Shown piece after piece: positions 2,636-3,079 of a DNA stretch of 39,439 nt (the stretch's first letter is position 1; each line of letters opens with the position of its first letter). The notes beneath the pieces are model-generated. The model was given only the letters and a program-made list of their open reading frames with translations. It did no database searches and was not told the DNA's origin. Location of the stretch: the NCBI GenBank assembly GCA_013151415.1, contig JAADII010000183.1, forward strand, positions 1 through 39,439, written 5' to 3'. This DNA is from Chloroflexota bacterium (GTDB lineage: Bacteria; Chloroflexota; Anaerolineae; J102). The translations under genes were made by a program, and so were the position numbers.

Positions 2636-3079
2636 CCCGACGAACGGAGAGCCGTCGCTGCCGGTCATGAGCCGGTAGAGGAACCTCCCGACTCCCGGCC
2701 CCATCTCTGGGGCAAGGTTGCCTCACGAAACCGTAAGTGAGGGCGCTGCGCTGGTAACGGCGCAGTGACTACAACCGCAACAGAGAGCAGTCCCGCCAGC
2801 GGCCTGCCTTTGGCAGGTGCGGGTAAGGGGTGAAACGGTGGGGTAAGAGCCCACCAGCGGTTCGCAGTAATGCGGCCGGCTGGGCGAGCGTGCAACCGGG
2901 AGCAAGGCGAGAGGGTCGGGCTTGTCCGTTGGACAGGTTCGATCTCGTCGCAGCGTCGGTCGGTGAGGTCGGGTAACGCCCGACAGGCCAGACGACGCCA
3001 CGCAACAAGCGTGAGATAGATGACGGCTAACCACGGCTTGCCCGTGGGAAACAGAATCGGGGGTACTCCGTTCGTTGGT
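2636..3079 (+). ncRNA. rnpB: RNase P RNA, bacterial type
   Basis: Catalytic RNA that trims 5' leaders from pre-tRNAs. The ends are set by a 12-bp P1 helix pairing 2638-2649 with 3066-3077 (one G-U). Conserved family segments appear in order: TAGAGGAA before P4, CAACAGAGAGCA near 2778, GGGTGAAACGGTGGGGTAAG with a following GAGCCCACC near 2828-2857, and AGATAGATGACGG followed by ACAGAAT near 3012-3056. P4 can form between 2683-2691 and 3057-3064 with a bulged U at 2686, which matches the universal bulged U (U69 in E. coli numbering). The P4 sequence itself departs from the usual GGAAAGUCC, reading GGAACCTCC, with matching changes on the other strand. At about 444 nt it is somewhat longer than the E. 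coli RNA. It lies just upstream of seven tRNA genes. Confidence 0.92.

Follow-up and report, generated by a model that had tools for sequence, protein, structure and literature searches.

Compensatory rewriting of the P4 helix in a putative lineage-specific RNase P RNA of Chloroflexota

The canonical letters of helix P4 rank among the universally conserved nucleotides of RNase P RNA (PMC4919922), which raises the question of how an RNase P RNA gene whose P4 departs from them is to be read. Such a gene (rnpB, Table 1) lies in the window analyzed here, a stretch of 39,439 nucleotides from a Chloroflexota bacterium (GCA_013151415.1, contig JAADII010000183.1). In a cmscan search, it aligns end to end with positions 1-367 of the Rfam class A model (RF00010), which outscores the class B model, though at 94.7 bits (E-value 2.4e-29) the match falls slightly below the gathering score of 100, and a gathering-level Rfam scan of the window does not list it. 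The other core motifs are intact in the class A alignment (GAGGAA, ACAGAA, GGTAAGAG, and GATG), and P4 sits between the GAGGAA and ACAGAA regions with one probably unpaired nucleotide at position 69; the canonical letters AGUCCG/CGGCUU are replaced at positions 67, 68, 72, 354, 357, and 358. The gene is the sole RF00010 match in the source genome (97.7% complete), and the same scan gave no second rnpB copy. We consider it very likely, on comparative grounds, that this gene encodes the working RNase P RNA of its genome and that its P4 has been rewritten by compensatory change within a distinct Chloroflexota lineage.

Table 1. Parts of the RNase P RNA gene in the window (P4 nucleotides in E. coli numbering)
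Feature	Positions	Strand	Basis
rnpB, RNase P RNA, whole RF00010 match	2639-3080	+	cmscan
P1, 5' strand, pairs with 3069-3075	2641-2647	+	consensus fold, two-sided changes in 7/7 pairs
P2, 5' strand, pairs with 3021-3027, pseudoknot with P4	2651-2657	+	100% standard pairs in relatives
P3 hairpin	2658-2678	+	consensus fold
P4, 5' strand, A66 C67 C68 U69 C70 C71 C72 G73 A74	2683-2691	+	sequence, covariation, register energies
P5, 5' strand, pairs with 2898-2902	2692-2696	+	consensus fold
Additional self-contained hairpin after P5 and before P7, where type A has P6, P5.1-like	2698-2713	+	two-sided changes in 7/7 pairs
P8, conserved loop GAAACnGnAA marking the altered group	2722-2741	+	loop counts, 68/70 vs 0/36
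S-domain P10/11, P12, P13, and P14, type A-like, with GGTAAGAG	2771-2891	+	class A alignment, consensus fold
P15 stem without the type A GGU loop (binding tRNA 3' CCA)	2907-2951	+	consensus fold
Branched additional helix, P15.1-like, between P15 and P18	2953-2998	+	two-sided changes in 10/16 pairs
P18 hairpin	2999-3013	+	consensus fold
J18/2 (AGATAGATG) and P2, 3' strand	3014-3027	+	class A alignment, consensus fold
P4, 3' strand, U352 C353 G354-G358 U359	3057-3064	+	sequence, covariation

As to its surroundings, seven tRNA genes follow rnpB directly (Leu, Ala, Gly, Gly, Phe, Gln, and His; window 3113-3864), among them two near-identical tRNA-Gly(GCC), and only one of the seven, tRNA-Leu, has an encoded CCA. 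The arrangement of rnpB and tRNA cluster is kept in several genomes of the same family, with a similar order in L026 and L031. A 6S RNA (RF00013, 72.4 bits) is found on the minus strand at 10598-10779.

Window positions 2678-2695 read GAGGAACCTCCCGACTCC and positions 3050-3066 read AACAGAATCGGGGGTAC; in the class A alignment, GAGGAACCUCCCGACUCC (2678-2695) stands opposite the model's GAGGAAAGUCCGGGCUCC and AACAGAAUCGGGGGUA (3050-3065) opposite AACAGAACCCGGCUUA. In E. coli numbering, A66, C67, C68, and U69 are thus A2683, C2684, C2685, and U2686, positions 70-72 are C2687-C2689, 73 is G2690, and 74 is A2691, whereas on the 3' strand 352 is U3057, 353 is C3058, 354-358 are G3059-G3063, and U359 is U3064. 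A preliminary description of this locus had proposed that A67-U358 and G68-C357 are both replaced by C-G pairs, which is evident from the sequence, the class A model placing both P4 strands there; it had, however, overlooked a third replacement, that of G72-C354 by C-G. The remaining pairs A66-U359, C70-G356, C71-G355, and G73-C353 are kept. Because Rfam leaves P4, which is pseudoknotted with P2, unscored as pairs, complementarity between its strands is no artifact of the alignment. Nor is a canonical P4 hidden elsewhere in the gene, an outcome under which the earlier proposal would have fallen: the only exact copy of GGAAAGTCC in the window, at 1978-1986 on the minus strand, is outside rnpB and has no ACAGAANNCGGCTTA near it at up to 2 mismatches.

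Pairing of this helix was followed across the phylum in 67 family-by-P4 rows from 62 Chloroflexota families and over 7 P4 pairs, where standard pairs fill 469 of the 469 cells. When the 3' columns are permuted among the sequences, standard pairs average 336 of 469 and reach at most 361 in 2000 trials, statistics that are inflated by relatedness among the sequences, and sliding the P4 register leaves only 34-59% standard pairs. Because pairing had helped to pick candidate sites in the first script, the extraction was repeated with anchors only, and the 73 genomes with one candidate then gave 511 standard pairs of 511. Six of the seven positions hold 2-5 pair types, namely, in the 67 rows, A-U 38, C-G 27, G-C 1, and U.G 1 at 67-358; G-C 39, U.G 18, U-A 9, and C-G 1 at 68-357; C-G 66 and U-A 1 at 70-356; C-G 65 and G-C 2 at 71-355; G-C 33, C-G 29, and A-U 5 at 72-354; and G-C 42, A-U 14, C-G 9, U-A 1, and U.G 1 at 73-353. 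The C68 of the window recurs in four further loci (L059, L061, L106, and L140), each time with G357 opposite. Compensatory variants are also present in RNAs of otherwise canonical type, with A72-U354 and G71-C355 together in L287 (G146), G71-C355 in L279 (G148), C67-G358 in L281 (G090), G67-C358 in L276 (G431), and A72-U354 in L284 (G123). Since several separate families show such changes and arrive at distinct solutions, P4 appears to have been re-paired repeatedly in Chloroflexota and not by one accident.

Position 69 deserves separate attention because U69 is described as universally conserved and as a ligand of metal 1 (PMC4919922). That the window retains a U able to bulge, as first proposed, is plain from the sequence; the bulge itself is only probable, an unbulged helix being nearly equal in energy. 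Nearest-neighbor calculation makes the register with U69 bulged 3 kcal/mol better than registers that keep A66-U359 and move the bulge to 68 or 67, but CCUCCC/GGGGGU is degenerate in pairing register, and a shorter unbulged helix comes out as equally stable (-9.8 kcal/mol as compared with -9.7 kcal/mol for the U69 bulge). U69 might accordingly pair with G357 in a continuous helix, with the catalytic bulge lost or moved to C67, and the near-equality of these two energies is what speaks for such a shift; we nonetheless regard it as quite unlikely, because the window P4 matches the canonical one position by position with no gaps, the cost of moving the bulge while holding A66-U359 is appreciable, and in sister RNAs with A at position 69 the sole register that pairs both sides of P4 keeps nucleotide 69 unpaired. 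Those A69 forms come from two related draft genomes of another order, G139 (family f73; L289:1501-1852) and G192 (family f87; L335:1501-1862), whose P4 strands are AAUAUCCG/CGGAGUU and AUUACCCG/CGGGGGU, that of G139 also carrying U70-A356. In relatives with UU at 68-69, the bulge can sit at either position. Taking these together, U2686, the equivalent of U69, is probably bulged.

The altered core is not confined to the window, and the question whether a clade shares it can be answered in the affirmative. It occurs in all readable rnpB genes of the same family (17 of 19 genomes being readable) and in many other families, usually as C67-G358, U68.G357 or U68-A357, and C72-G354. Relatives with the altered core in the same family and class, the window excepted, have GAGGAACTTCCCGA on the 5' strand and ACAGAATCGGG[A/G]GTA on the 3' strand, one of them with a small flank difference. 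This sharing excludes chance as well as read error, the latter of which the preliminary description had argued against from the paired changes. Against RF00010, nearly all altered RNAs score 53-131 bits, whereas most canonical Chloroflexota RNAs reach 168-329 bits. The altered 3'-strand pattern was found in at least 117 stretches of public genomes, and among the matches listed nearly all are titled Chloroflexota, the few titled only "bacterium" having the altered 5' partner. The names listed include Chloroflexus, Roseiflexus, Oscillochloris, Chloroploca, Viridilinea, Kouleothrix, Herpetosiphonaceae, Caldilineales, Ardenticatenia, other Anaerolineae, and Candidatus Aquidulcis. Matches to the 3' pattern in Shimia abyssi (L110), a Lachnospiraceae (L136), and Glaciihabitans (L142) lack the 5' partner and were set aside as chance. 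Of 400 evenly sampled Chloroflexota genomes, 33 show the altered pattern in its strict form and 273 the canonical 5' strand, and among the Chloroflexota genomes scanned none was seen with both an altered and a canonical P4. The relatives are mostly metagenome-assembled genomes, and detection of rnpB is incomplete in that some have no detectable copy: RF00010, RF00011, and the window RNA all failed to find an RNase P RNA in G055, G027, G050, and G155, rated 95-97% complete, which may reflect a gap in the assembly, an RNA that has diverged still further, or a different enzyme. Variation extends to the flanks of P4, since L299 (G093, family f64) combines an altered P4 with an inserted C (GAGGCAA) and with CCAGAA in place of ACAGAA.

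The preliminary description, which understated the P4 change as two pairs instead of three, also missed that the entire C-domain is remodeled. A consensus fold built from 23 relatives and projected on the window, with pseudoknots outside the model, contains P1, P2, P3, P5, P7-P15, and P18, and most helices show compensatory changes. The S-domain has the P13 and P14 of type A. The C-domain, on the other hand, does not show the type A pattern of P6, P16, and P17 present with P5.1 and P15.1 absent, as self-paired hairpins occupy the places of P6 and of P16/P17. The GGU loop of P15 is lacking, the motif GGGTAGRC being missing from 67 of 70 altered RNAs. The hairpin in the P6 place, the branched helix between P15 and P18, and the lack of GGU in L15 make the C-domain look type B-like beside a type A-like S-domain, the absence of P6 being established by exclusion only because pseudoknots are outside the fold model. 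The features of the C-domain agree with type B, with which the S-domain disagrees in having P13/P14 where type B has P10.1, and type C, defined by absent P13/P14 and present P6/P16/P17 (PMC2858038, PMC7191817), does not describe the RNA either. We lean, with some reserve, toward the view that Chloroflexota hold a distinct class of RNase P RNA, with a type A S-domain, a remodeled C-domain, a P4 evolving by pair replacement, and one sublineage in which U69 has become A, so that the P4 pairs and U69 alike would lose their standing as truly invariant in bacteria.

With class A (RF00010; E. coli and T. maritima), the window RNA shares the order P1-P5, P7-P15, and P18, the P12-P14 S-domain with GGTAAGAG, the GAGGAA and ACAGAA flanks, and the length of P4 with its unpaired U69, but it differs in the three changed P4 pairs, in P6, P16, and P17 not being found, in L15 without GGU, in the additional hairpins that separate P5 from P7 and P15 from P18, and in the low scores of the altered group. 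Class B (Bacillus) has in common with it a hairpin at the P5.1 position, a helix at the P15.1 position, and no P6, P16, or P17, whereas the window S-domain is type A-like with P13/P14 and its P4 is noncanonical. The P8 loop of the altered group, we presume, also resembles that of Bacillus subtilis. Class C (Thermomicrobium roseum and Sphaerobacter thermophilus) likewise belongs to Chloroflexota and mixes A- and B-like elements, yet it has P6, P16, P17, and P10.1 and no P13/P14 (PMC7191817, PMC2858038), whereas the window RNA has P13/P14 with no P6 or P17 found, a separation that, P4 aside, follows the published descriptions. Among CPR bacteria, diverged RNase P RNAs resemble it in scoring low against the model, having lost the GGU/UGG motif, and lacking peripheral helices; their departures, as far as the accessible part of PMC8172020 goes, concern peripheral helices and P12, with no P4 re-pairing reported there. 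The open papers surveyed hold no earlier report of P4 re-pairing, which is weak evidence, and the older literature may well mention it.

Placed on an rpoB tree of 67 genomes, the CUUCCC core falls into three clades that stand apart from one another amid canonical families, and the well-supported branches alone require at least four changes of the P4 core. This pattern could mean that the rewritten P4 arose several times independently under selection, instead of once with later movement or replacement, and some other rewritings of P4 are certainly separate (A72-U354, G71-C355, and C67 or G67 alone). Such independent origins of the core are nevertheless unlikely, since the S-domain tree, which leaves out 22 genomes in which no S-domain anchor could be located, divides altered RNAs (A69 forms included) from canonical RNAs in two groups with support of 100/99; the altered RNAs also have their C-domain layout in common, as well as the P8 loop GAAACnGnAA, which 68 of 70 altered RNAs carry as against 0 of 36 canonical ones. 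In addition, the rnpB of G051, an Anaerolineae-type genome, is nested among those of Chloroflexales, which suggests gene transfer. The simplest reading would be one ancient altered rnpB lineage, spread or kept patchily over at least three species clades.

Whether such an RNA still works bears on the claim, made at the outset, of an altered but functional core. If rnpB were degenerate, the changes in P4 would be drift and the tRNA 5' ends would be processed by another enzyme, and the low RF00010 score, under the gathering threshold, speaks for this reading. Against this, every changed pair is matched across families, the other helices covary, and the altered core is found in free-living lineages as well, for example in relatives of Roseiflexus and Chloroflexus. 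Moreover, the source genome encodes an ordinary RnpA (PF00825, 100 bits, with the RRNR motif), in which inspection by eye gave no evident differences tracking the altered RNA, and a search of this genome for a HARP-type (PIN_5) protein-only RNase P found none. Since rnpB was detected only once, RnpA is normal, and PIN_5 proteins were not found, decay of rnpB is hardly credible, and the clade-wide sharing and covariation likewise favor a functional, if altered, core. By analogy, the window RNA would be a catalytically active RNase P with the same metal ligands as other RNase P RNAs. In T. maritima, these ligands are the phosphates of A50 and G51 and the O4 of U52, equivalent to E. coli 67, 68, and 69 (PMC4919922). 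Two metal ions would thus lie against the O4 of an unpaired U69 and the backbone phosphates at 67 and 68, and the water that they activate would cleave the 5' leader from pre-tRNAs. The paired letters would be free to change in concert because the metal contacts are made to backbone and bulge: in this lineage, A67-U358 became C-G, G68-C357 became U.G, U-A, or, as in the window, C-G, and G72-C354 became C-G, while the helix length, the A66-U359 end, C70-G356, C71-G355, G73-C353, and a probably unpaired U69 were conserved through the rewriting.

The usual rnpB PCR primers sit on P4 and would miss or mask altered genes. Bcheck predictions are only partial in Roseiflexus castenholzii, Roseiflexus RS-1, and Chloroflexus aggregans (PMC2996960), with no statement of the cause found in open papers, and the altered P4 probably explains this fragmentary rnpB annotation in Roseiflexus and Chloroflexus. 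From a mechanistic point of view, whether P4 needs its letters or only its shape and backbone has so far been approached mostly through mutants of laboratory RNase P RNAs, and the natural pair swaps of Chloroflexota provide a ready test of the matter. Together, the sequence comparisons suggest that P4 depends less on its exact letters than on the shape of the helix and an unpaired base.
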